From Sphingomonas sp. CROZ-RG-20F-R02-07 (lineage in GTDB: Bacteria; Pseudomonadota; Alphaproteobacteria; Sphingomonadales; Sphingomonadaceae), in the NCBI RefSeq assembly GCF_022662335.1, contig NZ_JAKNQJ010000002.1, positions 124,001 to 188,000 of the forward strand: DNA of 64,000 bases, read 5' to 3'. Position 1 is the stretch's first letter, and each line of letters begins with the position of its first letter. Below the pieces are notes generated by a model that saw only the letters and a list, made by a program, of their open reading frames with translations, was not told the origin of the DNA and did not search any database. The translations under genes and the position numbers were made by a program. Positions 3,283-19,613 of this stretch are shown piece by piece.

Positions 3283-3293
3283 CGGAGAAGGAT

Positions 3294-5744
3294 ATGCGCC
3301 GTCTGTTGCCGCTGCTCGTGCTGGCGCTGCCATTTCCGGCACATGCGCAGGACTGCGCCGGTCCGGTCGTCGCATGCGGCGTGCCGATGCCGGGTGCCCT
3401 CGCGCTGCTGTCGCCCGGCCAGACCGCGCGCGTGGTGGTGAGCGCGGACGACGATGCGGGCGTGCGCCGCGCCGCGGCCGATCTCGTGGCCGATCTGAAG
3501 GCGGTAGGCGGCGGCAGCGCAGCGCTGTCGCCCGACGCGCGGGACGGCGCGACGGTGATCGCCGGCACGCTCGGCCACAGCGCCGCCATCGATGCGCTCG
3601 TCCGCGCGGGGAAGCTGGACGTGTCCGGCCTGGCCGGCCAGTGGGAGGGCTATGTCGAGCAGGTCGTCGATCATCCCGCACCCGGCGTCGCGCGCGCGCT
3701 GGTCGTGGCCGGCAGCGATCGGCGGGGCACCATCTTCGGCCTCTACGACATCAGCGCCAAGGCGGGGGTGAGCCCGTGGACATGGTGGGCCGACGTGCCG
3801 GCGCAGCGGCATCCGACCTGGTATCTCACCGCCGGCCGCGTCGCCGATCATCCGATCGTCAAATATCGCGGCATCTTCATCAACGACGAGGAGCCGGCCT
3901 TCGGCGGCTGGGCACGGGCGACGTTCGGCGGCGTGAACCACCGGGCCTATGAGCGGCTGTTCACGCTGCTGCTGCGGTCGCGCGCCAATTATCTGTGGCC
4001 GGCGATGTGGGGCAAATCGCTGTGGCAGGACGATCCCGCCACCGCCCCGCTCGCCACGGAGATGGGGATCATCCTCGGCACGTCGCACCACGAGCCGATG
4101 GAGCGCGCCAATATCGAGTGGAAGCGCCAGGGCGGCGGCGCGTGGGATTATGCGACCAACGCGCCCGCGCTCCGCGCCTTCTGGCGCCAGGGCATCGAAC
4201 GGCGCGGGCCGTCGGAGGATCCCGTTACCATCGGCATGCGCGGCGACGGCGACGAGCCGATGACGAAGGGCACCGCCATTCCCCTGCTCGAACGGATCGT
4301 CACCGATCAGCGGGCGATCATCGCCGATGTGAGCGGCCGCCCGCCTGCGCAGACGCCGCAGGTGTGGGCGCTCTACAAGGAGGTGCAGGATTATTATGAC
4401 GGCGGGATGCGCGTTCCCGAGGACGTGACCTTGCTCTTTTCCGACGACAATTGGGGCAATATCCGCCGCCTGCCGCCGCCGGGCGAGGTGCGCGCGGGCG
4501 GATCGGGCGTCTATTATCATTTCGATTATGTCGGCGATCCGCGCAATTACAAATGGATCGATACGGTCAGCATCCCGCGCGTGTGGCAGCAGATGGCGAT
4601 GGCGGACCGCTATGGCGCCGACCGGCTGTGGATCGTGAACGTCGGCGACCTGAAGCCTCTGGAATATGCGACGAGCTTCTTCCTCGACATGGCCTGGAAT
4701 CCCGGCCGGATGACGCTGGGGGCGATGGAGGCCTATCCGGTGCGCTGGGCGGCGCAGCAGTTCGGCGCGGCGCAGGCCGGCCCGGTCGGCGCGATGATCG
4801 CGCGCTACGGCCAGCTCGCGAGCCGGCGCAAGCCCGAGCTGATCGATGCCGACAGCTATGCGCTCGCCGATGGATCCTGGGCGCGCGTCCTGGCCGACTG
4901 GAATATGCTGGCGGCCGCGGCGCACCGCGAGGCAGAGGCGATCCCGGCCGACAGGCGCGATGCCTATGACGAGCTTGTGCTCCACCGCATCGATGCGATG
5001 GCGAGCCTGCACCGGCTCTATGAGGCGGTCGCCGAGAACCGCGCCGCCGCCCGTGCCGGCGACGATGCCGCAGCGGTCCGTTGGGCCGCCAGCACGCGCG
5101 GCTATTTTGCCGAGGATGGGGCGCTCCGCCGCCGCTACGAATCGCTCGGCGGCGGCAAATGGCCGCAGATGATGGCGCAGACCCATATCGGCTATACCGG
5201 CTGGCAGGAGCCCGCCGCCGACGTCATGCCCGCGCTCGCGAGCGTCGCCGCGCCGCTGCCCATCCCGGCGACCGAGCCGGCACCCTTCGCGACCCTTGCG
5301 GCGGACGCTGGCCGGCCGATGGATGGCGCGGGCTTCCACTGGCAGATGGTGCCGAACTTCACCGCCGGGGGCGCGGCGATGGCCGTCACGCCCGTCGCCG
5401 CCGCGCCGATCGAACATCCCGGCGGCGTGAGCCCGCAGATCGTTTACCCGGTGACGCTGCCGCCCGGACGCATGGTGTCGGTCAGCGTCGTCGCCGCGCC
5501 GGGACTGGACGTGCGCGGCACGCGGCGCCAGCGGCTGGCGCTGTCGATCGACGCGGGCGCCCCCGTCCCCATCGACCTGCTCGCCGGCGACGACGATTCG
5601 CGGTGGCGCGGCGCGGTGAGCGACAACCGACGCATCGCGACCGCCATCCTGCCCGTCGCGCGCTCGGGGCGCCATGCGTTGCACCTCTGGCTGGTCGATC
5701 CGCAGGTGGTCGTGGAACGGCTGGAGATCGAGCTCGTGCGCTGA
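3294..5744 (+). CDS. GH115 xylan alpha-1,2-glucuronidase, secreted
   Basis: An 816-residue protein with signal peptide MRRLLPLLVLALPFPAHAQ. The family hallmarks are readable: a Rossmann-like N-terminal region with FGLYDISAKAGVSPW, then KYRGIFINDEEP, NYLWPAMWGKS and LGTSHHEPM in the barrel, and a C-terminal beta domain from about residue 640. GH115 enzymes remove (4-O-methyl)glucuronic acid side chains from glucuronoxylan, including internal residues. The open frame extends far upstream antisense to the esterase, but the ATG at 3294 has GGAGAAGG just upstream and starts the signal peptide. The cupin_8 gene follows 43 bp downstream on the same strand, so the two may be cotranscribed. Confidence 0.9.
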   Translation: MRRLLPLLVLALPFPAHAQDCAGPVVACGVPMPGALALLSPGQTARVVVSADDDAGVRRAAADLVADLKAVGGGSAALSPDARDGATVIAGTLGHSAAIDALVRAGKLDVSGLAGQWEGYVEQVVDHPAPGVARALVVAGSDRRGTIFGLYDISAKAGVSPWTWWADVPAQRHPTWYLTAGRVADHPIVKYRGIFINDEEPAFGGWARATFGGVNHRAYERLFTLLLRSRANYLWPAMWGKSLWQDDPATAPLATEMGIILGTSHHEPMERANIEWKRQGGGAWDYATNAPALRAFWRQGIERRGPSEDPVTIGMRGDGDEPMTKGTAIPLLERIVTDQRAIIADVSGRPPAQTPQVWALYKEVQDYYDGGMRVPEDVTLLFSDDNWGNIRRLPPPGEVRAGGSGVYYHFDYVGDPRNYKWIDTVSIPRVWQQMAMADRYGADRLWIVNVGDLKPLEYATSFFLDMAWNPGRMTLGAMEAYPVRWAAQQFGAAQAGPVGAMIARYGQLASRRKPELIDADSYALADGSWARVLADWNMLAAAAHREAEAIPADRRDAYDELVLHRIDAMASLHRLYEAVAENRAAARAGDDAAAVRWAASTRGYFAEDGALRRRYESLGGGKWPQMMAQTHIGYTGWQEPAADVMPALASVAAPLPIPATEPAPFATLAADAGRPMDGAGFHWQMVPNFTAGGAAMAVTPVAAAPIEHPGGVSPQIVYPVTLPPGRMVSVSVVAAPGLDVRGTRRQRLALSIDAGAPVPIDLLAGDDDSRWRGAVSDNRRIATAILPVARSGRHALHLWLVDPQVVVERLEIELVR

Positions 5745-5787: not shown

Positions 5788-6819
5788 ATGCGAACCGATT
5801 TTCCTGCCATCACCGAACGTCGCGTCGCCGAGCGACCGGCCGTCGACGCCGACACGTTCGCGCGCGAGGTGGTGTCCGGCTATCGCCCCGTCGTTCTTCG
5901 CGGACAGGTGGCGCATTGGCGCGCGGTGGCGGCAGGGCAGGCCGGCCCGCGCGCGACGGCGGAGTATCTCGCTGGCTTCGGCGGCGGTACGCCGCTCGAG
6001 GTGCTGATCGGCCCGCCGGACATCGGCGGCCGGTTCTTCTATGCCGACGACAGCCTCACCGGGTTCAACTTCCACCGCCAGCAGGTGTCGATCGGTGCGC
6101 TGGTCGCCGAGCTGTTGCGCTATGCCGAAACCGCGGAGCCGCGCCCGCATGCGCTCTACGCCAATGCCGCGACCGCCCCCGAACATCTGCCCGGCTGGGA
6201 GGCGGCGAACCCGCTGGCGCTGGGGATCGACGCGCCGGCGCGGCTGTGGATCGGCAATGCCAGCAGCATCGCGACGCATTACGACACGTCGATCAACATA
6301 GCCTGCGTCGTCGCCGGTCGCCGACGCTTCACGCTGTTCCCGCCCGATCAACTGCCCAACCTCTATGTCGGGCCGCTCGATCATACGATGGCGGGGCCGC
6401 CGTCGAGCATGGTCGATCCCGACGCGCCCGATCTCGCCCGCCATCCCCGGTTCGCCGACGCGCTGGCGCATGCCGAGGTGGCCGAACTGGAGCCGGGCGA
6501 CGCGATCTTCATCCCGCCGATCTGGTGGCATCACGTCCGCGCGTTCGACCGGCTGAACGTGCTGGTGAACTATTGGTGGGAGCATCGTTCGGGCGCCGCC
6601 TTCGTGGCGCTGGTGCACGCGATCTGGGCGGTGCGCGATCTGCCGGATGCGGAAAAGGCGGCATGGCGCGGCTGGTTCGACCACCTCGTCTTCGCGCCCG
6701 ACGCCGGCCGCGCCGCGGACCATCTGCCAGATGCGGCGCGCGGCATCATGGGCGCCGCAAGCCCCGAGCGGACCAGCCGGATCCGCCAGTTCCTGACCGG
6801 TATGCTGGGCCGATCCTAA
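5788..6819 (+). CDS. Cupin-like (cupin_8/JmjC-like) protein
   Basis: A 343-residue cytoplasmic protein of the cupin_8 family, related to JmjC and FIH-type Fe(II)/2-oxoglutarate oxygenases. A metal-binding triad is visible: H164-Y-D166 in ATHYDTSINIA and a distal histidine at 248 or 249 in PPIWWHHVRAF. FTLFPPDQLPNLYVGP is the family's conserved central strand. In sphingomonads and xanthomonads such proteins accompany TonB receptors and tryptophan-halogenase homologues, but their substrate is not established. It follows GH115 by 43 bp and its last 4 bp overlap the convergent GH9 gene. It is a paralogue of the protein at 8609-9616. Confidence 0.8.
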   Translation: MRTDFPAITERRVAERPAVDADTFAREVVSGYRPVVLRGQVAHWRAVAAGQAGPRATAEYLAGFGGGTPLEVLIGPPDIGGRFFYADDSLTGFNFHRQQVSIGALVAELLRYAETAEPRPHALYANAATAPEHLPGWEAANPLALGIDAPARLWIGNASSIATHYDTSINIACVVAGRRRFTLFPPDQLPNLYVGPLDHTMAGPPSSMVDPDAPDLARHPRFADALAHAEVAELEPGDAIFIPPIWWHHVRAFDRLNVLVNYWWEHRSGAAFVALVHAIWAVRDLPDAEKAAWRGWFDHLVFAPDAGRAADHLPDAARGIMGAASPERTSRIRQFLTGMLGRS

Positions 6820-8612
6820 CGCCCGCCGGGTCGGTCGAGATACGTCGCCACCCAGAGCAGCGGCGCGTTCCAGTTGATCGCCACTTCGTTGTCGGCATAG
6901 GCGCGGCTGTCGTCGAGCCAGCAGCGCTGGGCGGTGCACTGGCCCTTCAGGGTGGCCGATACGGGATCGGCGAAGGCGGTGTTGTTAGCGCCGCCGCCGA
7001 TCACGCCGGGCGGCGGCCCGGGCAGGCGCGCATCGAACTGGTGCGCCCAGAAGCGATGGTGCGGGCGCGACATGGCGTGCCAGCCGAAGCCGGTGACATA
7101 GCTCTGGTTTAGCGGGTTGCGGCCCAGCACGTAATCCGCGGTATCCACCACCGCATCGCGGTAGCGCGCGTCGCCGGTGAAGCGCGCCGCCATGGCGAGG
7201 ATGATCCCGCGGTTGAGGATCGCACCGTTCGATCCCCAGGGATAGCGCGTCGTGGCATAGGGCAGGTGATAGCCCGATCGCGCCTCCTCGGCGAGGAAGC
7301 GGTCGGCGAGCGCGATCAGCCGGGCGCGGGCGGCGTCGCGGTCGGCGGCGGGGACGCCCGGCGCGGTCGCCAGCGTCATCGTGCCGAGCGCGGCCGTGTT
7401 GCTCCACCCCGGCTCGCCGCCCAGCGGCGCGGTGGCGAGCGGCATGCGGTGGAGCGCGGCGGCGAGTTCGGGCGTCGGCGTGGCGGCGTAGAGTTCGGCG
7501 GTCGCCCAGTAGAATTCGTCGGACAGATCGTCGTCGCCATAGCCGCCGCTTCCGGTGAACGCCTGCGCCGCGTAGATCGCCGGATTGCGCAGCGCGGCGC
7601 GATAGGCGCGGCCGGCGGCGGTAAGGCAGCGCCGCGCGAAGCCGTCGTCGATCCCCTTCCACACCCGCGCGCATTGCGCGGCGGTGGCGGCGAGATTGAG
7701 CGTCGCGGCCGTGCTGGGCGGGTAGAGCAGCCGCTGTTCGCGGTCCTCCGCCGGTATCGTCGGCAATGTGGTCCAATGCCGATCGGCGACCTTGTGATGC
7801 GCCATGCCGCCCGCGTCGACCTCGGTCAGCAGAAGCCGGCCGCGGCCCTGGCGCCCTACCGGCAGCGCGAGGCGGCTGCCGTCGGGCACCTGCATCGCGA
7901 GCAGGAACCGCATCTCCCACCGGGCCTCGTCGAGCAGGTCGTTCGTGCCGTTCCCCGCCTCGGGCAGCGCGGCGCTGCCGTCGGGGAAGGAGGGGGCGGC
8001 CGCGTTCGCTTCGTAGAGATTCTGCAGCGTCCAGAGCGCGATGCCACCGTTGACGACATATTTGCCCTGATCGCCCGCGTCGTACCAGCCGCCGGTGACG
8101 TCGAGCGTATAGGGGCAGCCGGGCCACATCGTGCCGCGTTCGTCCGGCCCGGCGAAGCAGCCGGCGACCTCGTGCGGGTGGCCGGCCGCGCGCGCCCATT
8201 GCGCGCCGCCCGCATAGCGCGCCTCGATCGCGATCCCGGCGCGCGTCTGGTAGAAATAGTTGAGCGCGGCGCGGGCGACGGGACGATAGAGGCCGCCATC
8301 GATCCGGAACGGATGGCTGGCCGCGCCGTCTACCTCCAGCCGATAGGTGCCGGGCAGCCGCAGGCCGGTCATGTCGATCTGGTGGACATGATCGCCCGAC
8401 GCGGCATCGTCGCCGAAGACGCGCGTCGCGCCTTGGGCGACCGGCCGGCCTTGCGCGTCCGTCACCCGCCAGGCGAGCGGCGCCGTCGCCGCATCGTTCA
8501 GGATCGCCAGCTTCGCGGTGTCGGGCAGGAAGCCGAGCTGGTTGAGATTCACCGCATTTGGCGCGGCGGCGCCGAGCGTCAGCGGCGCGAGCAGGGCGAT
8601 CAGGCGCTTCAT
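6816..8612 (-). CDS. GH9 family glycoside hydrolase, secreted
   Basis: A 598-residue enzyme: signal peptide (about 1-18), a CelD_N-type immunoglobulin-like domain (about 20-105, VNLNQLGFLPDTAKLAIL), then the GH9 (alpha/alpha)6 barrel. Catalytic signatures are intact: GGWYDAGDQGKYV with D178 and D181 as base pair, RPHHRFW, and the C-terminal ADNEVAINWNAPL with the acid glutamate. GH9 members are mostly endoglucanases, with some exo-glycosidases; the xylan setting leaves the substrate open. It is the last gene of the six-gene operon: its ATG overlaps the cupin_8 stop as ATGA, which fixes the start. Convergent overlap of 4 bp with the first cupin_8 gene. Confidence 0.85.
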   Translation of the reverse strand: MKRLIALLAPLTLGAAAPNAVNLNQLGFLPDTAKLAILNDAATAPLAWRVTDAQGRPVAQGATRVFGDDAASGDHVHQIDMTGLRLPGTYRLEVDGAASHPFRIDGGLYRPVARAALNYFYQTRAGIAIEARYAGGAQWARAAGHPHEVAGCFAGPDERGTMWPGCPYTLDVTGGWYDAGDQGKYVVNGGIALWTLQNLYEANAAAPSFPDGSAALPEAGNGTNDLLDEARWEMRFLLAMQVPDGSRLALPVGRQGRGRLLLTEVDAGGMAHHKVADRHWTTLPTIPAEDREQRLLYPPSTAATLNLAATAAQCARVWKGIDDGFARRCLTAAGRAYRAALRNPAIYAAQAFTGSGGYGDDDLSDEFYWATAELYAATPTPELAAALHRMPLATAPLGGEPGWSNTAALGTMTLATAPGVPAADRDAARARLIALADRFLAEEARSGYHLPYATTRYPWGSNGAILNRGIILAMAARFTGDARYRDAVVDTADYVLGRNPLNQSYVTGFGWHAMSRPHHRFWAHQFDARLPGPPPGVIGGGANNTAFADPVSATLKGQCTAQRCWLDDSRAYADNEVAINWNAPLLWVATYLDRPGGR

Positions 8613-9616
8613 GACGGCTGCCCGAGCGTGCGCAGCAGCGTCGCGCGCATCCGCGCGAACCCGGCGGCGTCGGCCGGTCCCAGCATCCCGCGCATCTCGG
8701 GCGGAAGATGCGCGACGGGATCGCCGCCGGTCTGGAAGACCAGATGATCGAACATCATGCGCCACACCTCGCGTTGATCGTCGGGAAGGCCGCGCAGCGC
8801 GAACAGCGACAGCAGCAGCGCGTCATAGGGACTGACCGTTTGGTCGGCCGCGGTGTTCCACCAATAGTTGCACAGCATGTTGACCCGGTCGAGCGAAGCG
8901 ACCGCGTGCCACCAGTGGAAGGGAATGTAGATCGCGTCGCCCGGCTCCAGCGTGGCGTGCTGCGCCTGCGCCAGCGCTTCGGGGAAGCGGGGATAGCGAT
9001 CGAGATCGGGGGCGTCGGGATCGACCATGCTGACCGGCGTTCCCGCCGGCGTCAGCTCATAGGGGCCCATATAGAGATTGGCGACCTGATCGGGCGGAAA
9101 CAGCGTGAACCGCCGCCGGCCGGCGACGACCAGCGCGATATTCTCGGCGAGATCGTAATGCGTCGCGACCCGAATCGCATTGCCGAGCCAGAGCCGGGGC
9201 ACCACCCCGATCGGCACGATGGCGGTGGCGTTCTCCTCGGCGAAGCCCGGCAGCAGATCGGCCGCCGGGATCGACTGGATCGCCATCGCATAAGGCCGCG
9301 CGGCGTCGCGGTCGCGCAGCAGCCGGTCGAGAAACGGGCCGAGCGGCGATCGCCCGCGCGAGAAGTTCAGCCCCGCCATGTCCGGCGTGTAGAAGAACCG
9401 GCCCTCGATCGCGGGATCGCCGACGATGGCGTTCACCGGCTCGGCGTGGCTGAAGCGTTTCAGATAGGCGACGAACGCGTCGTCGCCGGCCTGCGCGGCG
9501 GCCACCGCGGGCCAGTCGGCAGCGATCCCGCGCAGCACGACGGGGCGGCAGGCGGGGCGGATCTCGGCATCGAACCGGTCGCGATCGACGCCGTGGAGCT
9601 CGGGCATGGGAGTCAT
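8609..9616 (-). CDS. Cupin-like (cupin_8/JmjC-like) protein
   Basis: A 335-residue cupin_8 protein, clearly paralogous to the one at 5788-6819: both share ATHYD, VVAGRRRFTLFPPDQ, SMVDPDAPDL and LEPGDAI. The likely metal ligands are H153, D155 and H237 (HWWHAVASLDR). It would be a cytoplasmic non-haem iron protein, possibly an oxygenase; the substrate is unknown. The start at 9616 is chosen because this ATG shares ATGA with the stop of the halogenase gene upstream; an ATG at 9607 is an alternative and one at 9646 would overlap far into the halogenase. It is the fifth gene of the operon. Confidence 0.8.
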   Translation of the reverse strand: MTPMPELHGVDRDRFDAEIRPACRPVVLRGIAADWPAVAAAQAGDDAFVAYLKRFSHAEPVNAIVGDPAIEGRFFYTPDMAGLNFSRGRSPLGPFLDRLLRDRDAARPYAMAIQSIPAADLLPGFAEENATAIVPIGVVPRLWLGNAIRVATHYDLAENIALVVAGRRRFTLFPPDQVANLYMGPYELTPAGTPVSMVDPDAPDLDRYPRFPEALAQAQHATLEPGDAIYIPFHWWHAVASLDRVNMLCNYWWNTAADQTVSPYDALLLSLFALRGLPDDQREVWRMMFDHLVFQTGGDPVAHLPPEMRGMLGPADAAGFARMRATLLRTLGQPS

Positions 9617-11154
9617 GCGGGCGACCCCAGCGGCGCGAGCGTGCACCCGACCTGCGCCAGATAATCATCCTGCCGCGGCAGGGCCTGTGCCGTTTCGGCG
9701 ATCACCGCGCGGATATCGGCCAGCCGCGCAAGCGTCTCGGCATCGGGCAGCGTGTCGGCGACCGGGTGATAGCGCCGCGGCCGCACGCCCTTGCCGGTCA
9801 TCACCGCCAGCCAGCTCGTTTCGGTGAACACCTCGTTATGTTCGCGAAAGACGCGCCCGCTCTCGCGGAACATCGCGAGCTTGTAAGCGGTGCCCTCGGG
9901 CATGGGCAGCGCGCGCATGTCGCGCCAGAAGGGCGAATCGTCGCGGTCGCTGGCGTTGTAGTGGAGGAGGAGGAAATCGCGGATGTCGCGATATTCTCCC
10001 GCCATCTCCGCGTTGAACCGGTCGATCTCCAGCGGCGAGAAACCGCGGCCGGGGAACAGCGTCAGCAGCCGCGCGATCGCGGTCTGGACGAGATGGATGC
10101 TGGTCGATTCGAGCGGTTCGAGGAACCCGCCGGCCAGGCCGAGTGCGACGACGTTGCCGATCCAGGCGCGCCGGCGGTGGCCGGCGGTGAAGCGCAGCGG
10201 CTTGGGATCACCCAGTGCCGGGCCGTCGAGCCCGGCGAGCAGCGTCGCGGCGGCTTCGTCGTCCGAGACATGCGCCGAGGAATAGACATAGCCGTTGCCG
10301 ATCCGGTGCTGGAGCGGAATGCGCCATTGCCACCCCGCCGGGCGCGCCGTGGCGCGCGTGAGCGGCAGGCGGGCGTCGCGTTCCGTGCCGAAGGCGCAGG
10401 GCACCGCCCATGCCCGGTCGCAGGGCAGCAGCGCCGACCAGTCCTCGAACCCCGCGTTCAGCCTTTCCTCGATCAGCAGGCCGCGAAAGCCCGAGCAATC
10501 GACGAACAGATCGCCCGCGACCCGGCGGCCATCCGCCAGTCGCACCGCGGCGACATGGCCGGTCTCGCCGTCCTGCTCGACGTCGACGACGCGGCCTTCG
10601 GTCCGCCGCACGCCCCAGCCTTCCGCCAGCCGGCGCAGGAGCCGGGCATAGAGGGCCGCGTCGAACTGGAACGCATAGCCGAGCTTCGACAGCGGCGATT
10701 GCGGCAGATCGTGGCGCGGATGGCCGAACCGCCCGCGATAAGCCGCCATGATGTTGAGCGAATAGGCCTCGAGCGGCGTCTCGTCGCCGAGCGCGCGTGC
10801 CTTCAGCCAATGATGGTGGAACTCGATGCCCTGCATATCGAGGCCGTAAAAGCCGAACGGATGGACGAACCGCTCGTCCGCGCGCGTCCAGTCGCGAAAC
10901 TCGATCCCCATCTTGTAGGTCGCGCGCGTCTCGCGGAGGAACTCCCCCTCGTCCAGGCCGAGCAGCGCGTTGAACAGCACGATCTGCGGGATCGTGGATT
11001 CGCCGACGCCCACAGTGCCGATCTCGTCCGATTCGATCAGTTCGAACGACAGCGCCCGGTCGCCGCCGAGGATGCGCGACAGCCCCGCGGCCGCCATCCA
11101 GCCGGCGGTGCCGCCGCCGACGATCACCACGCGCCGGATGCCGTCCTGCATCAT
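9613..11154 (-). CDS. Tryptophan halogenase family flavoprotein (copy 1)
   Basis: A 513-residue protein with all family signatures: N-terminal FAD motif VVIVGGGTAGWMAAA (9-23), GVGESTIP strap region (49-56), the conserved lysine K81 in ATYKMGIEF corresponding to the hypohalite-relay lysine of PrnA/RebH, and GWQWRIP, the GWxWxIP motif thought to bar monooxygenation. The residues needed for halogenation are therefore present, needing FADH2 from a separate reductase. The natural substrate is unknown; carbohydrate-locus homologues probably do not act on free tryptophan (inference). Start at 11154: ATG overlaps the preceding stop by 4 bp. Fourth gene of the operon. Confidence 0.85.
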   Translation of the reverse strand: MMQDGIRRVVIVGGGTAGWMAAAGLSRILGGDRALSFELIESDEIGTVGVGESTIPQIVLFNALLGLDEGEFLRETRATYKMGIEFRDWTRADERFVHPFGFYGLDMQGIEFHHHWLKARALGDETPLEAYSLNIMAAYRGRFGHPRHDLPQSPLSKLGYAFQFDAALYARLLRRLAEGWGVRRTEGRVVDVEQDGETGHVAAVRLADGRRVAGDLFVDCSGFRGLLIEERLNAGFEDWSALLPCDRAWAVPCAFGTERDARLPLTRATARPAGWQWRIPLQHRIGNGYVYSSAHVSDDEAAATLLAGLDGPALGDPKPLRFTAGHRRRAWIGNVVALGLAGGFLEPLESTSIHLVQTAIARLLTLFPGRGFSPLEIDRFNAEMAGEYRDIRDFLLLHYNASDRDDSPFWRDMRALPMPEGTAYKLAMFRESGRVFREHNEVFTETSWLAVMTGKGVRPRRYHPVADTLPDAETLARLADIRAVIAETAQALPRQDDYLAQVGCTLAPLGSPA

Positions 11155-12767
11155 ATCGGCGATCCGCCGCCGCCCACGTCGAACGGCGATGCGGCGTTGA
11201 ATTCGAAGAAGGGCAGGTCCGCCGCCGGTGCGGCCGCCACGGGCTTGACGGGAGCGAGTGGAGAGGGCGCGGTCATGCGCAGGAACTCGCCATGCGTCGG
11301 CAGCCGCCGCGCGGTTTCCGCATAGCCACGCCGCATCTGCTCGAGCGCGGCGGTCACCTTGGTTTCGTCCAGCGAATCGGCGGCGGGCTCCCAGCTTTGC
11401 GGCACGATGCCCTGGCCCAGGCACACCGCCACCCAGCTCGGGTTGCTGAACAGGTCATACCCTTCGCGAAACAGGCGCCCCTTGCCGGCGAACAGTTCGA
11501 TCTTGCGGGCCAGGCTGTCGGGCACGTCCATCGTGCGGACGCGGTTCCAGAACGGCGAATCGTCGCGCGCGGTCGCCTTGTAGTGGAGGATGATGAAATC
11601 CCGGACGTCCTCGTACAGCTCCTTCATCTGCCGGTTGAACTCCGCCCGCTCGGCGGGATCGAACCTCTTGTCCGGAAACAGTGCCACGAGCCGCTGGATC
11701 GCCGCCTGGACGAGATGGATGCTGGTCGATTCCAGTGGCTCGATGAAGCCGCTGGCCAGGCCGAGCGCGACGACATTGCCGTTCCAGCATTGCCGGCGCC
11801 GTCCCGCCTCGAAGCGCAGGCGGCGCGGCGTGCCGAGCGGTTCGCCCTCCAGGCCGGCCATCAACTGCGCCTCCGCGGCGTCGTCGGACAGATAGTCGCT
11901 GCAATAGACGAGGCCGTTGCCCATGCGGTGCTGGAGGGGGATGCGCCACTGCCAGCCGGCCGCTTTCGCGGTCGCGCGGGTGAAGGGATCGGGCTCGGCG
12001 GGGTTGGGCAGCGCGCAGGGCACCGCCACCGCGCGGTCGCACGGCAGCCACTGCGCATAGCTCTCGTAACCGGTGCCGAGCGTCTCCTCGATCAGCAGGC
12101 CGCGAAAGCCCGAGCAATCGATAAACAGATCGCCCTCCACCTGCTCGCCATCCGCGAGCGTCAGCCGCTCGACATGGCCGTTCGCGCCGTTCACCGCGAC
12201 ATCGGTGATGCGCCCCTCGATCCGGTGGACGCCCTGCGCCTCGGCATAGTCGCGCAGATAGCGCGCATAGAGACCGGCATCGAAGTGGAACGCGTAGAAC
12301 AGTTCGCGCACCGGCGAGCGCGCATCGTCGCCCGCGCGGCCGAACTTGCCGTGTGCTGCGGCCACCGCGCTCATCGACCAGGCGGCGATGTCGGGCACCG
12401 GACGCCGCGCCCGTTCGCGCAGCCAGAGCTGGTGGAAATGGATGCCCTGAAGATCATGGCCGTGATTGCCGAACGGATGGAAATAGCTCGATCCCAGCCG
12501 GCCCCAATCGACGAACTCGATCCCCAGCTTGAACGTAGCGGAGGTGGCGGCGACGAACGCGTTCTCGTCCAGCCCGAGCATCCGGTTGAAGTTGAGCAGC
12601 GGGGGGATCGTCGCCTCGCCGACGCCGACGGTGCCGATCTCCTCGGATTCGACGAGCGTCACCTCGGTATGGCCGTTGTTGAGGAAACGCGCGAAGGCGG
12701 CCGCGGCCATCCAGCCGGCGGTGCCGCCGCCGACGATCACGACGCGTCGGATGGGCTGTTCGTTCAT
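11151..12767 (-). CDS. Tryptophan halogenase family flavoprotein (copy 2)
   Basis: A 538-residue protein with FAD motif VVIVGGGTAGWMAAAAF (9-25), GVGEATIPP strap (48-56), lysine K80 in ATFKLGIEFVDW and GWQWRIPLQHRMGNG. IDCSGFRGLLIEE and LESTSIHLVQ are shared with copies 1 and 4, showing duplication within the locus. It is expected to be a reduced-flavin-dependent halogenase or related oxidase; the substrate is not known. The open frame runs far upstream, but the ATG at 12767 overlaps the preceding stop as ATGA and begins directly before the FAD motif. A C-terminal extension of about 40 residues, Ala/Pro-rich, follows the usual family end. Third gene of the operon. Confidence 0.85.
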   Translation of the reverse strand: MNEQPIRRVVIVGGGTAGWMAAAAFARFLNNGHTEVTLVESEEIGTVGVGEATIPPLLNFNRMLGLDENAFVAATSATFKLGIEFVDWGRLGSSYFHPFGNHGHDLQGIHFHQLWLRERARRPVPDIAAWSMSAVAAAHGKFGRAGDDARSPVRELFYAFHFDAGLYARYLRDYAEAQGVHRIEGRITDVAVNGANGHVERLTLADGEQVEGDLFIDCSGFRGLLIEETLGTGYESYAQWLPCDRAVAVPCALPNPAEPDPFTRATAKAAGWQWRIPLQHRMGNGLVYCSDYLSDDAAEAQLMAGLEGEPLGTPRRLRFEAGRRRQCWNGNVVALGLASGFIEPLESTSIHLVQAAIQRLVALFPDKRFDPAERAEFNRQMKELYEDVRDFIILHYKATARDDSPFWNRVRTMDVPDSLARKIELFAGKGRLFREGYDLFSNPSWVAVCLGQGIVPQSWEPAADSLDETKVTAALEQMRRGYAETARRLPTHGEFLRMTAPSPLAPVKPVAAAPAADLPFFEFNAASPFDVGGGGSPI

Positions 12768-14236
12768 CGGGTGAGATATCTCGCCTGCGCCGCCCGAAAG
12801 GCGGCATGGGTGGGAAGGTGCGGCAGCGCCGCGGCGATATCGGCCGCCAGCGCGGCCATGGCGGCGTCGGCGCTGGCGGCGGGAACGGCATCGATCAGTG
12901 GATCGAGCCGGCGCGGCAGGCAGCCCTGGCCGATCAGCACCGCCGCCCATGCGTCGCGTGCGAACGTCTCTTCCTCGTGGAAGGGCAAGCGACCGCGTTC
13001 CGTCCATTGCGCGAGCGTGTGCGCGAGGCTCGCGGGCGGCTCGGCCGCGGCGACCGCGCGCCACAGCGGGTCGCGCCGCTGCGCGGTGCGCCAGTGCATC
13101 GCCAGGAAATCCCGCACCCGGTTGGCCTCCGCCAGGCTCTGCCGGTTGAAGTCCGCCGCCTCGACGGGGGTGGGGACGGCACCGGGCAGCATCGTCACCA
13201 GCCGGTCGATCGCGCTCAGCGCCAGATGCAGGTTGCACCATTCGAGCGGCTCCATCTCGGTCGCGGCATCGCCGATCGCGACGACGTTGCCGCGCCAGGG
13301 TTCAGGCCGCGTGCCGGGGCGGATGCGGATGGGTGCGTCGGGTGCCTGGCCACAGGCGTTGCGCAGCACGCGCGCGGCGGCCGCGTCGCCCAGATGGCCC
13401 GACGCATAGCCGAACCCGCTCTGCTGCCCGCTCGTCCAGCGCCAGCCTGCCGGATGCGCCATGACCGGGGTCAGCACCGGCGGCGCGGCGGCGGGACCGT
13501 CCGCCAGCAACACCCGGTCGCACGGCAGCCATCGGCTCCAGTCGTCGCGCGCGGCATCGAGCGCGCCGCGCAGCCTTGCCTCGGGGCCGGTGGCATCCAC
13601 GAACAATTGGGCCCCGACCGCGCGTCCGTCGGCAAGCGTCACCGCCGCAACGAACCCGCGCGCATCGACGCGGACGTCGGCGATCTCCCCCGCAATCTCG
13701 CGCACGCCGACGTGCAGCGCGAAGGCGCGCATCATGGCGTGATAGCGCGGCGGATCGAGCGTCAGCCCATATTCGTGATCCGCGAACGGCGTGTCCGGCG
13801 TGGCGGGCACGAATCGGTCGGCGCGGGCGAGCGCGGCGGCGGGCGAATAGCCGTCGAACGGCCCCGCGGCTCCCGTGCGCGCGGCACGCAGCCAGTGGAG
13901 ATGGAACGATGTCGGCCCGAACGGCCGCCCATAGCGGCCATAGGCGTGGGCATAATCGGCAAGCCCCTCCGCCCAGCCGCTAAAGCGCGTGCCGAGCCGA
14001 TAGCCGGCGCCGGTGCGCGCGATCCCGTCGCCTTCGCCGATGCCCAGATCGCCATGAAAGCCGAGCAGCGAGGGCAGGGTGCAGGCGATCCGGTCGGCGA
14101 GCGCATCCGGCGAAACCGGGGTTGCCAGCAACGTGACGTCGAGAAACGGCGCCCGCCGCCGAAGCGCCGCCGCCGCACACCAGGCGGTGATCCCGCCCCC
14201 TGCGACCAGCACCGTTCCCAGCGCACCGGTCCGCAT
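12764..14236 (-). CDS. Divergent tryptophan-halogenase-like flavoprotein, key motifs degenerate (copy 3)
   Basis: A 490-residue member of the same fold that has lost the halogenase hallmarks. The FAD motif is altered to VLVAGGGITAWCAAAAL (9-25), the GVGEATIP strap is absent, the conserved lysine is arginine R80 (AGYRLGTRF), and GWxWxIP reads GWRWTSG. What remains is FVDATGPEARL, WLPCDRVLLAD and LEWCNLHLALSAIDRL, which align with the FAD-binding core of its neighbours. It is unlikely to halogenate; it could be a structural partner or a flavoprotein with another reaction (inference). The ATG at 14236 shares one base with the stop of copy 4 (TGATG); its own end overlaps copy 2 by 4 bp. Second gene of the operon. 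Confidence 0.75.
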   Translation of the reverse strand: MRTGALGTVLVAGGGITAWCAAAALRRRAPFLDVTLLATPVSPDALADRIACTLPSLLGFHGDLGIGEGDGIARTGAGYRLGTRFSGWAEGLADYAHAYGRYGRPFGPTSFHLHWLRAARTGAAGPFDGYSPAAALARADRFVPATPDTPFADHEYGLTLDPPRYHAMMRAFALHVGVREIAGEIADVRVDARGFVAAVTLADGRAVGAQLFVDATGPEARLRGALDAARDDWSRWLPCDRVLLADGPAAAPPVLTPVMAHPAGWRWTSGQQSGFGYASGHLGDAAAARVLRNACGQAPDAPIRIRPGTRPEPWRGNVVAIGDAATEMEPLEWCNLHLALSAIDRLVTMLPGAVPTPVEAADFNRQSLAEANRVRDFLAMHWRTAQRRDPLWRAVAAAEPPASLAHTLAQWTERGRLPFHEEETFARDAWAAVLIGQGCLPRRLDPLIDAVPAASADAAMAALAADIAAALPHLPTHAAFRAAQARYLTR

Positions 14237-15762
14237 CAGGCGGCGTCCGCCATCGGGCAGAAGCGCGCGATGAAGGCGCGGTGGTCGGATCGGCCCGCGA
14301 CCTCGCCTGCGATCTCTCCATGCAGCGCGTGAAGTCCCTCGAGGAGCGCGGCGCTCGCGACGGTGTCGGCGCGCGGGTCCCAGCCGGTCGGCACGATGCC
14401 CTGGCCCAGATACACCGCCACCCAGCTCGCATCCAGGAACACGCCTTCGCGATATTTCACGACCCGACCGCGACGGCGCCACAGCTCCATCTTCTCGGCC
14501 AGGCTGTCGGGCACCGCCATCGTGCGCACGTAATTCCAGAAGGGCGAATCGTCGCGCGTGGTCGCGTGATAATGAAGGATCAGGAAGTCGCGGATGCGAT
14601 CATATTCCAGGTCGATCACGCGGTTGAACTCGTCGCGATCCGCCGCCGCGACGCGGCGTTCGGGGAACAGCTCGATCAGCGCGGTGATCGCCTGCTGGAC
14701 GAGATAGATGCTGGTCGATTCGAGCGGCTCGAGAAATCCCGAGGCGAGCCCGACCGCGACGCAATTGCCCACCCAGCTGCGCCGCCGCCGTCCGGCCGCG
14801 AAGCGCAGCAGGCGCGGCGCCGCGATCGCTTCGCCCTCCACCGCCTGCTCGAGCGCGGCCCGGGCGTCGTCGTCGGAGGTAAAGGCGCTCGCATAGACAT
14901 AGCCGTTGCCGGTGCGGTGCTGGAGCGGGATGCGCCAGCGCCAGCCCGCCGGCATGGCGATCGCGCTGGTATAGGGCGTGACCGCGGTGGCGGTACGGCA
15001 GGGCATCGCCACCGCGCGGTCCGCGGGCAGCCAGCGCGACCAATCCTCCCACGTTTCGCCCAGCGCCTCCCCCAGCAGCAGCGAGCGAAACCCTGAACAA
15101 TCGACGAACAGGTCTCCATCGATCCGCTCGCCCGAACCCAGGACGATCGCGGCGATATCCCCGCTTTCGCCGTCGCGCTCCACCCGGGTGACGATTCCCT
15201 CGGTGCGCGTCGCGCCCATCGCCTCGGCGATTTCGCGCAGATAGGGCGCGAACAGCAGCGCGTCGAACTGATAGGCATAGCCGAACGTGCCCGCCAGCCG
15301 CCGCCGATCGGGATCGGGATGATCGAACCGCCCCTCGCGTGCCAGCGTGCAGGCATAGGAAAACCGGTCGAGCGGCGGCAGCGGCGCGCCTTCGTTCAGC
15401 AGGCGCGCCCAATAATGATGGAAATCGACCGCGCCCGTGCCCCGCCCGAACGTGCCGAACGGGTGCACATAGCTGTCGCCGATCCGCCCCCAGTCGCGAA
15501 ATTCGATCCCCAGTTTGAACGTCGCGCGGGTGCGAGCCATGAAATCGGCCTCGGCAATCCCCAGCCGCTCGTTGAAGGCGCGGATATGCGGCAGCGTCGC
15601 TTCGCCGACCCCGACGACTCCGATGGCTTCCGATTCCACCAGCTGCACGGTGCAGCGCCCGGGCAGCAGCCGAGCCAGTGCGGCCGCTGTCATCCAGCCG
15701 GCCGTGCCCCCGCCGACCACCACGACCCGCACGGGATCCCGGTCCTCTCTCTCCTCGCCCAC
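14236..15762 (-). CDS. Tryptophan halogenase family flavoprotein (copy 4), first gene of operon
   Basis: A 508-residue protein with FAD motif VVVVGGGTAGWMTAAAL (13-29), GVGEATLPH strap (51-59), lysine K83 in ATFKLGIEFRDW and GWRWRIPLQHRTGNG, so the halogenase residues are intact. I chose the GTG at 15762 because AAGGAGG lies six bases before it and it leaves a short leader before the FAD motif; an in-frame ATG at 15792 would add ten residues and lacks such a site. It heads the six-gene operon reading towards GH9 and is divergent from the TonB receptor, sharing a 248-bp regulatory region. Predicted cytoplasmic, dependent on a flavin reductase encoded elsewhere. Confidence 0.85.
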   Translation of the reverse strand: MGEEREDRDPVRVVVVGGGTAGWMTAAALARLLPGRCTVQLVESEAIGVVGVGEATLPHIRAFNERLGIAEADFMARTRATFKLGIEFRDWGRIGDSYVHPFGTFGRGTGAVDFHHYWARLLNEGAPLPPLDRFSYACTLAREGRFDHPDPDRRRLAGTFGYAYQFDALLFAPYLREIAEAMGATRTEGIVTRVERDGESGDIAAIVLGSGERIDGDLFVDCSGFRSLLLGEALGETWEDWSRWLPADRAVAMPCRTATAVTPYTSAIAMPAGWRWRIPLQHRTGNGYVYASAFTSDDDARAALEQAVEGEAIAAPRLLRFAAGRRRRSWVGNCVAVGLASGFLEPLESTSIYLVQQAITALIELFPERRVAAADRDEFNRVIDLEYDRIRDFLILHYHATTRDDSPFWNYVRTMAVPDSLAEKMELWRRRGRVVKYREGVFLDASWVAVYLGQGIVPTGWDPRADTVASAALLEGLHALHGEIAGEVAGRSDHRAFIARFCPMADAA

Positions 15763-15871
15763 CGGCGTCCTCCTTCCCCCCGTGGCGGGCATGGTTGCGC
15801 TCTCGTTTCCAGCGATCCTTGATTAGGCGGGGCGCGTCAACCGCTGGCGCGTGGCTGCAGGCTAGCGTTGC

Positions 15872-15896
15872 AAAAACACCACATGCGCTGGTTTTT
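15872..15896. promoter_or_regulatory. Inverted repeat in the halogenase-operon/TonB-receptor divergent region
   Basis: AAAAAC at 15872-15877 and GTTTTT at 15891-15896 bracket ACCA and TGGT in the same symmetry, giving an interrupted palindrome about 25 bp long. It lies between the two divergent starts and just upstream of the TTGACG element at 15901, the position expected for an operator or activator site. The cognate regulator is unknown; LacI-type binding is one possibility. Confidence 0.35.
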
Positions 15897-15900
15897 ACAG

Positions 15901-15930
15901 TTGACGGCGAAAGACTGTTACCGCAATCAT
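15901..15930 (+). promoter_or_regulatory. Candidate promoter of the TonB-dependent receptor
   Basis: TTGACG at 15901-15906 is a good -35 element; AATCAT at 15925-15930 is a weak -10 with an 18-base spacer. Downstream, at 15984-15989, an AGCGCT core lies within ATTACAGCGCTGATTAA; only the core matches the xyl-box-like operators found elsewhere in the window, so its role as an operator is uncertain. A purine-rich GGGGGAGGA ribosome-binding site precedes the receptor ATG. Confidence 0.35.
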
Positions 15931-16010
15931 TGCCGTCTGCCACCGCTGCGATTACGAGGTGGGGGCAGATCAGGCGCGATTACAGCGCTGATTAAAGGGG
16001 GAGGATTACG

Positions 16011-19000
16011 ATGCGCCTTGTTGCGCCGCCGCATGGCACCAGCAATCATTTCGTTCGCTTGATGCGTGGCGCTTCTGCCACAGCGCTGTGTGTAGCCGCG
16101 ATGGCGGGCACGGCGCAGGCGCAAGTGACGCCCGACCAGCAGGCGCCGATCACCGGCGCCAACCAGCCGTCGCCCACCGGCGCGAAGGCGGGCCCCGGCA
16201 CGGCCGGCTCGTCGACGCCGTCGAGCAGCGCGACCGGCGCCGTCGGCACGCAGATGACGGTGGGCGAGGTGCCGACGCCCGGCGACCAGACGCCCGCCAC
16301 GTCCGATGCGGGCGCCAACGGCCCCGACGACGTGGTCGTCACCGGCATCCGCCAGAGCCTCGCCAACGCGCAGAACATCAAGCGCAATTCGGACACGGTC
16401 GTCGATGCGATCACCGCGACCGACATCGGCGCGTTGCCGGACCGCTCGGTCACGGAGGCGCTCCAGCGCGTGCCGGGCGTCCAGATCAGCCGCTTCGCCG
16501 GCGCCAACGATCCCGATCACTTCTCGGTCGAGGGTTCGGGCGTCAACGTGCGCGGCCTCAACTTCGTCCGGTCCGAGTTCAACGGCCGCGACACCTTCTC
16601 GGCGGGTATCGGCGGTCAGGCGATCAACTTCGCCGACGTTCCCGCCGAACTGCTCGGCTCGGTCGAGGTGTACAAGAACACCACCGCCGAACTGATCGAG
16701 GGTGGCTTGGCCGGCACGGTCAATCTCAACACCCGCAAGCCGTTCGACAATAATGGTCTGCATATCGGTGCCGATGCCGAAGCGAACTATGGCGATCTCG
16801 AAAAGAAATGGTCGCCGACCGGATCGCTGCTCATCAGCGACACCTGGCAGACCGGCATCGGCAAGTTCGGCCTGCTCGCCGACGTCAGCTATTCGCGCAT
16901 CCGCAGCCGCGCCGACGGCATTCAGGTGACGAACTTCCAGACCCGCGACAACCAGAGCGCGATCGCGGCGAATTCGACGACCACCACCATCTGCCGCAAC
17001 GCGCTGCCCGGCACGACCGACACGACCACGCTGCCCGCGGCGGGAACGGGCTGCGGCGCGGCCAGCACGGCCGGCGCCGACGGTCTGCTCGATCCGACCG
17101 GCACCCGCTATGCCCCGATCGGCGGCCAGTACCGCACGCAGGATTTCGATCGCAAGCGTGACGGCCAGGCGGTGGCCGCCCAGTGGCAGAGCAACGACGA
17201 GCGCACCCTCGTCACCGCGCAGTTCCTGCGCACCCATACGACGAACAGCTGGGGCGAACACACCTTCGAGACCGCGCCCGATCTGTCCGAATACAACACC
17301 TATCCCTATGGCTGCGCCCAGAACGGCAACGGCCCCGCATCGAACGGCAATTCGACGACGCGCGCCGAATGCTCCGTCACCGGCACGCGCAACTACAATT
17401 ACGATGCGAACGGCCTGTTCCAGTCGGGCTATATCACGCAGCCCGGCAGCGGGTACCGCTCGGCGTGCAGCGGCACCGCGACCTGCTACGTGCCGACCGG
17501 CGGAACCCAGCAGTCGCTGTCGCGCCGCCAGGTGTACGAAGAGAATGCGATCAAGGATTACGGCCTCAACCTGAAGCTCCACCCCGACGACCATTGGTCG
17601 ATCAACCTGGATGCCGACTATACCGAGGCCGAGCACAACGATCTCGATTTCAGCGTGTTCGGCTCCACCTTCGCCGACAGCGAGCTGAACCTGACCGGCA
17701 ATCTGCCGTCGGTCGTGGATCACAAGCCGGCGACGCTGGCGGCCGCCTGGGCTACGCCCAATCCCAAGCTCGTCGCCGAAAACGACGCGCAATATTTCTC
17801 CGATCCGAACGTCCAGTTCTGGCGCGCCGCGATGGATCATGCGGAGCACAGCGTCGGCCGCGAATATGCGTTCAAGGGCGATTTCGACTATAAGTTCGAC
17901 GATGGCGGTTTCCTGAACCACTTCAAGTTCGGCGCCCGCTATGCCGATCGCCGCGAAGACGTGCAGTATAGCGCCTATAATTGGGGTGCGCTGAGCGAAG
18001 TGTGGTCGGGCAGCAACCCGGTCTCGATCGCGCAGTCGCCCGCGAACAGCGCCTTCTACTCGTTCCCCAACTTCTTCCGCGGCGCGACGCCGGGGCCGAC
18101 GGGCGGCTATTATTACACCGGCGATCTCATCAAGGCGTACAATCAGTCTGCGGCCTATTTCCAGCAGATCGGGAATACCTGGACCTCGACGAATGCCGCC
18201 AACACCTTCACCCGAGCGGATGGCAGCACGTTCAGCGCTTCGGTGCCGAGCTGTAATTCAACGACTATCGTTGCGGATCCCCGTGGCGGCACCGTTGTGG
18301 GCTGCCAACCAACGACCACGTTCAGCCCGCTGGCGCAGCGTGCAGGCGTGGTTCCCGGCACCTCCTACCTGCCGTCCGAAATCCAGCGCGTGACGGAGCA
18401 GGACGTCGATGCCTATGCGCAGCTCAATTTCGCCACGCCCGGCAATCTGTTCGGCAATGTCCGGATGAGCGGCAATATCGGGCTTCGTTTCGTCGACTCT
18501 GCCATCACCTCGGCAGGCTCGGTCGGCGCGCCGACGCAACAGTCGACCGGGACGCAGGATCCCTATGCGGTGCGCTGCGTCACCACCACGGCGACGCGCC
18601 CTGATGGCACCACCGTCGTGACCCAGCCGACCGGCGCTTGTACCCTCGGTGCCGATGGCTATGCCGCGCTGCGCCAGTTCTCGACGGGGCAGACCATCTC
18701 GGAGGTCGCGCACAACAGCTATCATTACTTCCTGCCGAGCCTGAACCTGAAGTTCGGGATCGACCGCAATCTCATCGTGCGCCTGGCGGCGTCCAAGGTG
18801 CTGACGCGGCCCGATCTCGCCAATATCCGCGACTTCCTCCAGGTCGGGTTCGATCCGAACAGCGGCGTGGCCACCGCGACGGCGGGCAATCCCTATCTGA
18901 AGCCCGCCACCGCCTGGCAGTTCGATGCGACGGTCGAATGGTATTTCGGCAAGGTGGGCCAGCTCTCGCTCGACGGGTTCTACAAGTCCGTTCACAACTT

Positions 19001-19613
19001 CTTCTACCAGTCGCTGTTCGAGCGTCCGATCACCAGCAACGGTGTCACCGAATATGTCCAGGTGCGGGGACCGGCCAACTATAGCGGCTATGGCAAGATC
19101 AAGGGTGTCGAGGTCACGTATCAGCAGACCTTCGACTTCCTGCCCTCGATCTTCAACGGCCTGGGCACGAGCATGAACTATTCGTTCATCTCCAGCTCGG
19201 GCCTGCCCAACTCGTTCCTGAGCGGCGGCGCACCGACGGCTGTGTCGAACATCAAGGCGGGCAACCTGCCGTTCGAGGGGCTGTCGAAGCACAATTTCAA
19301 CGCCACCCTGTTCTACGAGAAGGGTCCGGTGTCGCTGCGTGCGGCGTATAACTGGCGCTCGAAATATCTGCTGACCGCAGCCGACGTGATCTTCCCCTAC
19401 ACGTCGATCTTCCAGGATGCGGGCGGGCAGCTCGACGCGTCGGCATTCCTCAACGTCAACAAGTATATCAAGATCGGCGTTCAGGGCGTGAATCTGGCCA
19501 ATCAGATCGTGAAGACCGAACAGGCCTATATCAACGGGTCCGATGCGACGGCGCCGCGATCCTATTTCGTCAACGATCGCCGCTTCTCGTTCATCCTGCG
19601 CGGCAACTTCTGA
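16011..19613 (+). CDS. TonB-dependent receptor for oligosaccharides
   Basis: A 1200-residue outer-membrane receptor. Signal peptide to about residue 37 (ending AMAGTAQAQ), then a Pro/Gly/Thr-rich spacer (about 38-105), a TonB-box-like DDVVVTGIRQ, the plug domain (ALPDRSVTEALQRVPGVQI through GTVNLNTRKPF) and a 22-strand barrel ending in RRFSFILRGNF with the terminal phenylalanine usual for outer-membrane barrels. The subfamily is the one found with glycan-utilisation loci in Caulobacter, Xanthomonas and Sphingomonas; it probably imports xylo-oligosaccharides (inference from neighbours). No FecA-type signalling domain is seen. Divergent from the halogenase operon, convergent with GH10 across a shared terminator. 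Confidence 0.92.
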   Translation: MRLVAPPHGTSNHFVRLMRGASATALCVAAMAGTAQAQVTPDQQAPITGANQPSPTGAKAGPGTAGSSTPSSSATGAVGTQMTVGEVPTPGDQTPATSDAGANGPDDVVVTGIRQSLANAQNIKRNSDTVVDAITATDIGALPDRSVTEALQRVPGVQISRFAGANDPDHFSVEGSGVNVRGLNFVRSEFNGRDTFSAGIGGQAINFADVPAELLGSVEVYKNTTAELIEGGLAGTVNLNTRKPFDNNGLHIGADAEANYGDLEKKWSPTGSLLISDTWQTGIGKFGLLADVSYSRIRSRADGIQVTNFQTRDNQSAIAANSTTTTICRNALPGTTDTTTLPAAGTGCGAASTAGADGLLDPTGTRYAPIGGQYRTQDFDRKRDGQAVAAQWQSNDERTLVTAQFLRTHTTNSWGEHTFETAPDLSEYNTYPYGCAQNGNGPASNGNSTTRAECSVTGTRNYNYDANGLFQSGYITQPGSGYRSACSGTATCYVPTGGTQQSLSRRQVYEENAIKDYGLNLKLHPDDHWSINLDADYTEAEHNDLDFSVFGSTFADSELNLTGNLPSVVDHKPATLAAAWATPNPKLVAENDAQYFSDPNVQFWRAAMDHAEHSVGREYAFKGDFDYKFDDGGFLNHFKFGARYADRREDVQYSAYNWGALSEVWSGSNPVSIAQSPANSAFYSFPNFFRGATPGPTGGYYYTGDLIKAYNQSAAYFQQIGNTWTSTNAANTFTRADGSTFSASVPSCNSTTIVADPRGGTVVGCQPTTTFSPLAQRAGVVPGTSYLPSEIQRVTEQDVDAYAQLNFATPGNLFGNVRMSGNIGLRFVDSAITSAGSVGAPTQQSTGTQDPYAVRCVTTTATRPDGTTVVTQPTGACTLGADGYAALRQFSTGQTISEVAHNSYHYFLPSLNLKFGIDRNLIVRLAASKVLTRPDLANIRDFLQVGFDPNSGVATATAGNPYLKPATAWQFDATVEWYFGKVGQLSLDGFYKSVHNFFYQSLFERPITSNGVTEYVQVRGPANYSGYGKIKGVEVTYQQTFDFLPSIFNGLGTSMNYSFISSSGLPNSFLSGGAPTAVSNIKAGNLPFEGLSKHNFNATLFYEKGPVSLRAAYNWRSKYLLTAADVIFPYTSIFQDAGGQLDASAFLNVNKYIKIGVQGVNLANQIVKTEQAYINGSDATAPRSYFVNDRRFSFILRGNF

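Follow-up and report, generated by a model that had tools for sequence, protein, structure and literature searches.

Halogenase and iron-oxygenase-like gene cassettes paired with TonB-dependent receptors: a proposed modification of invariant loop tryptophans

Closest described systems

The flavin-dependent halogenases BrvH (6frl) and Xcc4156 (6y1w) are reported to be inactive on free tryptophan but active on free indole in vitro, and to have an active site that is open; their authors propose a larger, peptide-like substrate and leave the natural substrate open. We analyzed a 64,000-nucleotide stretch of Sphingomonas sp. CROZ-RG-20F-R02-07 (contig NZ_JAKNQJ010000002.1, positions 124,001 to 188,000; hereafter, the window), in which four genes of the flavin halogenase family PF04820 (H1 to H4), a cupin_8 gene and a glycoside hydrolase family 9 (GH9) gene form an operon that faces a TonB-dependent receptor gene. 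On balance, we lean towards the reading that this cassette halogenates or hydroxylates a loop tryptophan of its own receptor precursor before export.

BrvH and Xcc4156 are the closest solved relatives of H3 (525 and 518 bits), and the conserved lysine of the window halogenases corresponds to K83 in BrvH. Unlike these two enzymes as published, those of the window occur in a tandem array together with a degenerate partner and a receptor, and the word "TonB" is absent from the main text of the BrvH and Xcc4156 papers.

Two other systems act on tryptophan within a polypeptide. QhpG is reported to have an FAD-halogenase-like structure and to dihydroxylate Trp43 of the QhpC protein in the cytoplasm, the target being a cofactor precursor, unlike a TonB receptor. 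Against the QhpG model, whose cut-off is 240 bits, H1, H3 and H4 reach no more than 24-27 bits and fall outside the family. The gene arrangement is similar, with a flavoenzyme gene beside the gene of a protein with an invariant candidate tryptophan. By analogy, the cassette may work like the QhpG system without being a member of the QhpG family. MibH, a tryptophan halogenase of a peptide antibiotic precursor, is reported to act on tryptophan only within a peptide and has 26% identity to Xcc4156. Unlike the MibH system, the window operon has no room for an internal peptide gene because its genes overlap, and a small precursor gene inside it was ruled out on this ground.

For the receptor side, the nearest precedents are the carbohydrate utilization loci containing TonB-dependent receptors (CUT loci) of Blanvillain 2007, which combine such receptors with enzymes that degrade xylan or maltodextrin; halogenases are unmentioned in the main text of that paper.

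An overlapping operon facing a TonB-dependent receptor

The operon and the receptor comprise the following features (window coordinates):

14236..15792, minus strand: H1, PF04820 flavin halogenase family, 518 amino acids (Pfam; catalytic Lys and WxWxIP kept)
12764..14236, minus strand: H2, degenerate PF04820 paralogue, 490 amino acids (Lys replaced by Arg; GVGEAT loop and WxWxIP lost)
11151..12767, minus strand: H3, PF04820 flavin halogenase family, 538 amino acids (nearest solved relatives 6frl, BrvH, and 6y1w, Xcc4156)
9613..11154, minus strand: H4, PF04820 flavin halogenase family, 513 amino acids (Pfam)
8609..9616, minus strand: cupin_8 (PF13621), 335 amino acids, FIH/JMJD5-like iron oxygenase candidate (HxD...H kept)
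6816..8612, minus strand: GH9 glycosidase (PF00759), 598 amino acids, N terminus hydrophobic (Pfam)
15793..16010, no strand: divergent intergenic region, H1 to receptor
16011..19613, plus strand: TonB-dependent receptor, TIGR01782, 1200 amino acids, presumed target of the cassette
17976..18005, plus strand: codons of the receptor loop motif YNWGALSEVW (W658, 17982-17984; W665, 18003-18005)

The earlier note on this DNA had described six overlapping genes facing the receptor, and this holds: from H1 to GH9, all on the minus strand, the junctions overlap by 1, 4, 4, 4 and 4 bp (TGATG once, ATGA four times). Because of these overlaps, the six genes are probably co-translated. The scan for promoters returned a single weak site. 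The receptor scores 635.5 bits against TIGR01782 (cut-off 310) and has the plug and barrel domains, and the GH9 protein matches PF00759 with 282.9 bits and CelD_N with 70.5 bits. The note had also remarked that no established pathway explains why glycan uptake would need such enzymes. We found no link between these halogenases and TonB receptors in the open-licence literature searched, most of it at the level of listings. Within that scope, the pairing of halogenases with a marked receptor loop appears undescribed; the component families are known.

Halogenase loci are paired with TonB receptors across genomes

In 39 genomes of the host family, a TIGR01782 receptor lies less than 5 kb from 41 of the 54 halogenase loci, where uniform placement predicts 0.87; such a survey of neighborhoods had been suggested in the earlier note. 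The count is based on 85 halogenase rows and 110 receptor rows (fragments and weaker rows excluded), with up to 17 candidates scored per genome. All six PF04820 loci of the 3.9 Mb host genome have a TonB-type receptor adjacent or within ~2.2 kb. For 80 named loci, receptors were detected with self-built profiles, which missed at least that of L058; 70 of the 80 have a receptor within 5 kb, or 71 if the 889-residue frame of L058, which aligns with the L075 receptor family, is counted. Receptors are "paired" here when less than 5 kb from a halogenase in the 39-genome set and less than 2.5 kb in the named loci.

Halogenases group by the class of their receptor, with 15 class changes on the halogenase tree and a mean of 41.4 over 500 shuffles. 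The receptor is divergent from the array in Sphingomonas, Caulobacter, Oceanicaulis and Maricaulis and oriented otherwise in Gilvimarinus, Aestuariibacter and Asticcacaulis; receptor and array have thus stayed linked through rearrangements. The cassette is not a product of chance, since arrays with a degenerate second gene beside a receptor recur in named genomes. A GH9 homologue is present in 12 of the 80 named loci.

Paired receptor groups carry invariant tryptophans in predicted loops

We aligned 103 paired and 72 unpaired receptors. From the 39 genomes, 39 of the 41 paired and 65 of the 69 unpaired receptors entered the alignment, the remaining 2 and 4 being truncated, fused or weak-scoring. 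The receptor of L012, split in two frames, was removed by the length filter, and four receptors of other families were dropped. Second receptors of L012-L014, located 3.4-3.5 kb from an array with its own receptor, were counted as unpaired. Receptor classes (C1 to C5) were cut from the tree with the pairing in view, and C4, which is not monophyletic, was drawn as its paired members only.

The largest tryptophan contrasts are at window residues 665 (59% of paired versus 1% of unpaired receptors) and 658 (50% versus 0%). Both W658 and W665 are present in all 50 C1 receptors, and the only C1 loop residues at 100% are these two and Ser1092. One loop tryptophan is found in 28/28 C2 receptors and, at the same column, in 7/7 of C5 (LTDPLG-W-GG and variants); the C2 plus C5 clade with L083 has it in 36/36 paired receptors. 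C3 has one in 6/6 receptors, one of the six being the SapC-type receptor of L029, which is labelled unpaired though SapC and cupin_8 genes follow it at the contig end. In C4, a tryptophan falls within the C1 loop in 8/8 receptors.

A predicted receptor model (52 sequences; mean predicted local distance difference test score, pLDDT, 82.4) places W658/W665 in one long segment and the C2/C5 and C3 positions in two others, long segments and short turns following each other in alternation; the mapping is approximate for C2/C5 and C3, whose positions are gaps in the window receptor. Because of this alternation, the tryptophan-bearing segments are probably surface loops. Among the 50 Foldseek matches listed for the receptor were TonB transporters of other kinds at ~10% identity. 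Two simpler rules were rejected. One tryptophan per halogenase is not supported, as both tryptophans are retained at L062 and L069, C1 loci with a single enzyme. A tryptophan before the plug was absent by eye from five of six paired receptors of the host genome; the sixth, that of L005, has two, which may precede the true start. The two Oar-type receptor sequences share six tryptophans and are uninformative.

Loop tryptophan and pairing are present and absent together

C1, C2, C3 and C5 contain 35 of the 39 paired and none of the 65 unpaired receptors of the 39-genome sample, and C4 adds two paired ones. When loop columns conserved at ≥95% are compared, C1 has two tryptophans and C2 plus C5, C3 and C4 have one each, whereas the unpaired clades have none. 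Six unpaired clades were counted at first; one is nested, leaving five independent clades, all without an invariant loop tryptophan (Fisher 0.008 for 4/4 paired groups versus 0/5 unpaired clades, with C4 not monophyletic). Two large paired clades with a mean identity of at least 0.52 have no loop tryptophan at a 97% threshold.

Around C4 the tree has the form (paired,(paired,unpaired)), where the inner clade is supported at 0.97 and the nine unpaired receptors are monophyletic with a support of only 0.36, and the loop tryptophan is present in 8/8 paired and 0/9 unpaired receptors. From this we read a probable joint loss of pairing and loop tryptophan. At the DNA level, the pattern YNWGx[hydrophobic]SExW had 10 matches across 398 genomes of the phylum, in three families, all within 2.3 kb of a halogenase when coordinates were compared by hand; the reversed pattern had no match in the same 398 genomes. 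In the unrelated L075 receptor family, [NQ]WG occurs in 6/6 receptors beside a strong halogenase. As an exclusive mark of pairing in this family, [NG]WG was rejected, since some unpaired members also have W before G; "unpaired" in this family means no halogenase within ~1.5 kb, and a further check covered the six genomes with FWG or YWG.

Three candidate catalysts and a recurrent degenerate paralogue

The earlier note had listed four tryptophan-halogenase-family genes in the operon. PF04820 does match all four, at 612-651 bits for H1, H3 and H4 and 339 bits for H2, and the first three keep the FAD-binding GxGxxG, the GVGE[AS]T loop (GVGEST in H4), the catalytic lysine, WxWxIP and EPLEST. H2 has Arg for the lysine, DRIACTLP at the loop, WTSG and EPLEWC. 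Judged by these residues, H1, H3 and H4 are plausible catalysts, and H2 is a degenerate paralogue and not a working halogenase.

The degeneration is recurrent. Across the 186 halogenase-family frames of the window, the host genome and the named loci, the lysine position holds another residue in 25 and a gap in one. In 27 of the 32 tandem arrays of at least three genes, the window's included, the low-scoring gene is exactly the second; of these 27 genes, 25 could be aligned, and the lysine is absent in 22 and kept in 3. By record titles, the arrays occur in alpha- and gammaproteobacteria. The idea that H2-like genes form one tight clade was rejected, as the tree lacks such a clade and 3/25 second genes keep the lysine. 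That a degenerate second gene recurs suggests that the H2 type may be a structural partner.

In a crude hydropathy check, H1-H4 and the cupins had N-terminal peaks of 1.2-1.8, versus 2.1-2.5 for the receptor and GH9, and had no strong signal-like N terminus. Taken with their relatives described above and below, the cassette enzymes may well act on proteins.

Fragmentary or degenerate halogenase-family frames also lie beside intact ones elsewhere (L070:5891-8734, L019:4735-7454). A second PF04820 subclass scores ~380-450 bits (G010:C48:14518-15879, G032:C14:187988-189382 and similar rows), with several members near TonB receptors.

Iron-oxygenase-like partners

The cupin_8 protein matches FIH (E ~3e-16) and JMJD5 (E ~1e-15) with HxD...H aligned. 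Among 27 cupin_8 proteins, HxD is present in 27/27 and the distal H in 26/26, with one gap. All four cupin_8 genes of the host genome are close to a halogenase.

DUF6445 (PF20043) genes are located between receptor and halogenase in L001, L057 and L077, with these representatives:

L001:9321-10148; L057:8985-10001; nine more loci: DUF6445

HxD...H is invariant in 10/10 aligned DUF6445 proteins, and a structure model (pLDDT 75.5) matches OGFOD1 best (Z 14.3), followed by LH3 and PHD2 near 12.6. Because of the invariant motif and these structural matches, DUF6445 is very likely a 2-oxoglutarate (2OG)-Fe(II) oxygenase, and the model suggests that it may act on protein targets.

SapC (PF07277) genes are also seen in halogenase-receptor loci (L002:8862-9581, L004:12721-13569). 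In L002, receptor, SapC, cupin_8 and halogenase follow consecutively. The Lysobacteraceae locus L067 (175-5077) has SapC, cupin_8 and halogenases, and no receptor was detected within ~9 kb of it.

Glycan context of the paired loci

The window itself has the composition of a xylan CUT locus, with the receptor accompanied by GH115, GH43, GH9, an FGGY kinase and a LacI regulator. Other pairs of the host genome lie with a melibiase-family enzyme (L001), with GH3 (L002) and with GH31, GH3 and a putative glucoamylase (L005). C1-class relatives (L015, L031, L036, L037) sit with GH10, GH67, GH3 or CBM15. Of the C2-class loci, L064 has two alpha-amylase-family genes and GH31 (starch-type) and L066 a glucokinase; no glycosidase was found among the proteins of L086 and L024, which were scanned in part and gave transporters or a receptor. 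Since related pairs lie in starch-type and melibiase (galactoside-type) loci, the pairing extends beyond xylan. A ferulate-type substrate is unlikely to explain the pairing in general, because aryl groups are absent from starch.

Proposed receptor modification and its alternatives

In the mechanism that we propose, H1, H3, H4 and cupin_8, with H2 as a probably non-catalytic partner, would act on the precursor of the divergently encoded receptor while it is in the cytoplasm and not yet folded. W658 and/or W665 of the motif YNWGxLSExW would be halogenated or hydroxylated; where the halogenase motifs are intact, Cl or Br incorporation is the default expectation, and hydroxylation is the alternative. 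The receptor would then be exported and fold with the modified aromatic residue in a surface loop, where it may tune glycan capture. Processing of the receptor had been one of two possibilities raised in the earlier note; the invariant loop tryptophans favor it, and its chemistry is a proposal. Also in its favor are the linkage of halogenase loci to receptors, the joint absence of tryptophan and pairing in one clade, the DNA motif and the L075 family; for the enzymes, we count the lack of a strong signal-like N terminus, the BrvH, Xcc4156 and QhpG precedents and the matches of cupin_8 and DUF6445 to FIH, JMJD5 and OGFOD1. Extended to many Pseudomonadota, one halogenase/Fe-oxygenase cassette would serve each TonB receptor class and modify its invariant loop tryptophan, with the degenerate paralogue as a recurrent adaptor; this wider version we hold tentatively, with somewhat less than even confidence.

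With this proposal, a group of "tryptophan halogenases" whose natural substrate the structural papers leave open gains a specific candidate substrate and a target peptide of ten residues, and it can be checked in proteomics data as mass shifts on one peptide. If true, enzymes add halogen or hydroxyl groups to outer-membrane receptors. Such a layer in the maturation of outer-membrane transporters would be new and would change the view of glycan uptake, receptor engineering and halogenase biotechnology.

Several observations weigh against this proposal. No chemical modification of a receptor tryptophan has been observed, and a surface-loop tryptophan of a sugar receptor also looks like a sugar-stacking residue. 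Several plug and barrel columns differ more than the tryptophans do (Ser146, 81% of paired versus 7% of unpaired receptors), so much of the contrast follows clades; paired receptors form clades, and the independent lineages are therefore few. Three small unpaired clades with a mean identity of at least 0.52 do have an invariant loop tryptophan. One- and three-enzyme C1 loci (e.g., L062, L069) carry the same two tryptophans, and the paired receptors of L165 and L003 fall outside all classes. L052 and L067, with ~10 kb on both flanks, have no receptor detected within ~9 kb; among the other receptor-less named loci, L045 has an extended flank on just one side, and the remaining ones lie near a contig end. 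In the L075 family, FWG or YWG occurs in 6 of 26 unpaired receptors (the other 20 have no W preceding the G), and F takes that position in two receptors whose neighboring halogenase is a weaker one. On the oxygenase side, the position of the FIH lysine that binds 2OG is Arg in 27/27 cupin_8 proteins, unlike FIH, and the DUF6445 model matches the small-molecule 2OG enzymes SnoN and HygX at Z 12.2, nearly the level of the protein hydroxylases.

The main rival takes the loop tryptophans as ordinary glycan-stacking residues and has the enzymes act on a small aromatic compound, co-inherited with the receptor. Shared ancestry within the paired clades could give both features, the C1 relatives with xylan-type GH10, GH67 and CBM15 likely share a ligand, and W before G in those six unpaired L075-family receptors fits as well, as does the reported free-indole activity of BrvH and Xcc4156. 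Yet the paired groups use different loops and each has an invariant loop tryptophan, unpaired clades below 50% mean identity have none, tryptophan and pairing are missing together in one clade, and one small aromatic shared by loci for xylan and for starch would not be expected; we consider this rival somewhat unlikely. Clearly unlikely, in our view, is that the target of the cassette is a different protein or site (exported glycosidases, the TonB machinery or residues elsewhere in the receptor). The cupin_8 and DUF6445 matches FIH, JMJD5, OGFOD1, LH3 and PHD2, which act on residues other than tryptophan, would fit such a target, as would GH9 as the last operon gene with homologues in some named loci, but 68 of the 80 named loci lack a GH9 homologue, yet 70 have a receptor within 5 kb. 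The other possibility of the earlier note, that the enzymes modify a ferulate-like aromatic group on imported xylan fragments, draws on the GH115, GH43, GH9 and FGGY kinase genes of the window; the same pairing in the starch-type L064 and the melibiase locus L001 disfavors it as a general reason and makes it very improbable. We give as little credence to the idea that, while the cell feeds on glycan, the enzymes release hypohalite or peroxide to serve locally as an antimicrobial or a redox signal: PMC11337851 does mention reactive species that arise from flavin halogenases, but the pairing with particular receptor classes and the loop tryptophan would be left unexplained.

PMC11337851 also reports phage-assigned rebH/prnA transcripts together with a guess on virus-receptor redox effects, which may be connected with the present loci if surface receptors are altered by halogenases.

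Further features of the window

Three neighboring features, two of which (the second cupin_8 and GH115 genes) were omitted from the earlier note, complete the locus:

5788..6819, plus strand: second cupin_8 gene, convergent with the GH9 gene
1713..5744, plus strand: GH115 gene, xylan context (Pfam)
27123..30988, no strand: FGGY sugar kinase, GH43, LacI regulator; xylose/xylan context

The second cupin_8 and GH9 genes overlap at their ends. GH115 we take to be an alpha-glucuronidase family, and a GH31 gene is also among the neighbors that fit xylan. The best named matches of H3 include Sphingomonas yabuuchiae, parapaucimobilis and sanguinis (80-81% identity). Positions 19614-20880 separate the receptor from an alpha-L-fucosidase-family gene; of the two frames there, 19667-20884 on the plus strand and 19715-21055 on the minus strand, the first was scanned and had no Pfam family match. 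Chemotaxis genes (CheB, CheA-like and a methyl-accepting protein; 31299-39520) adjoin the xylan genes.

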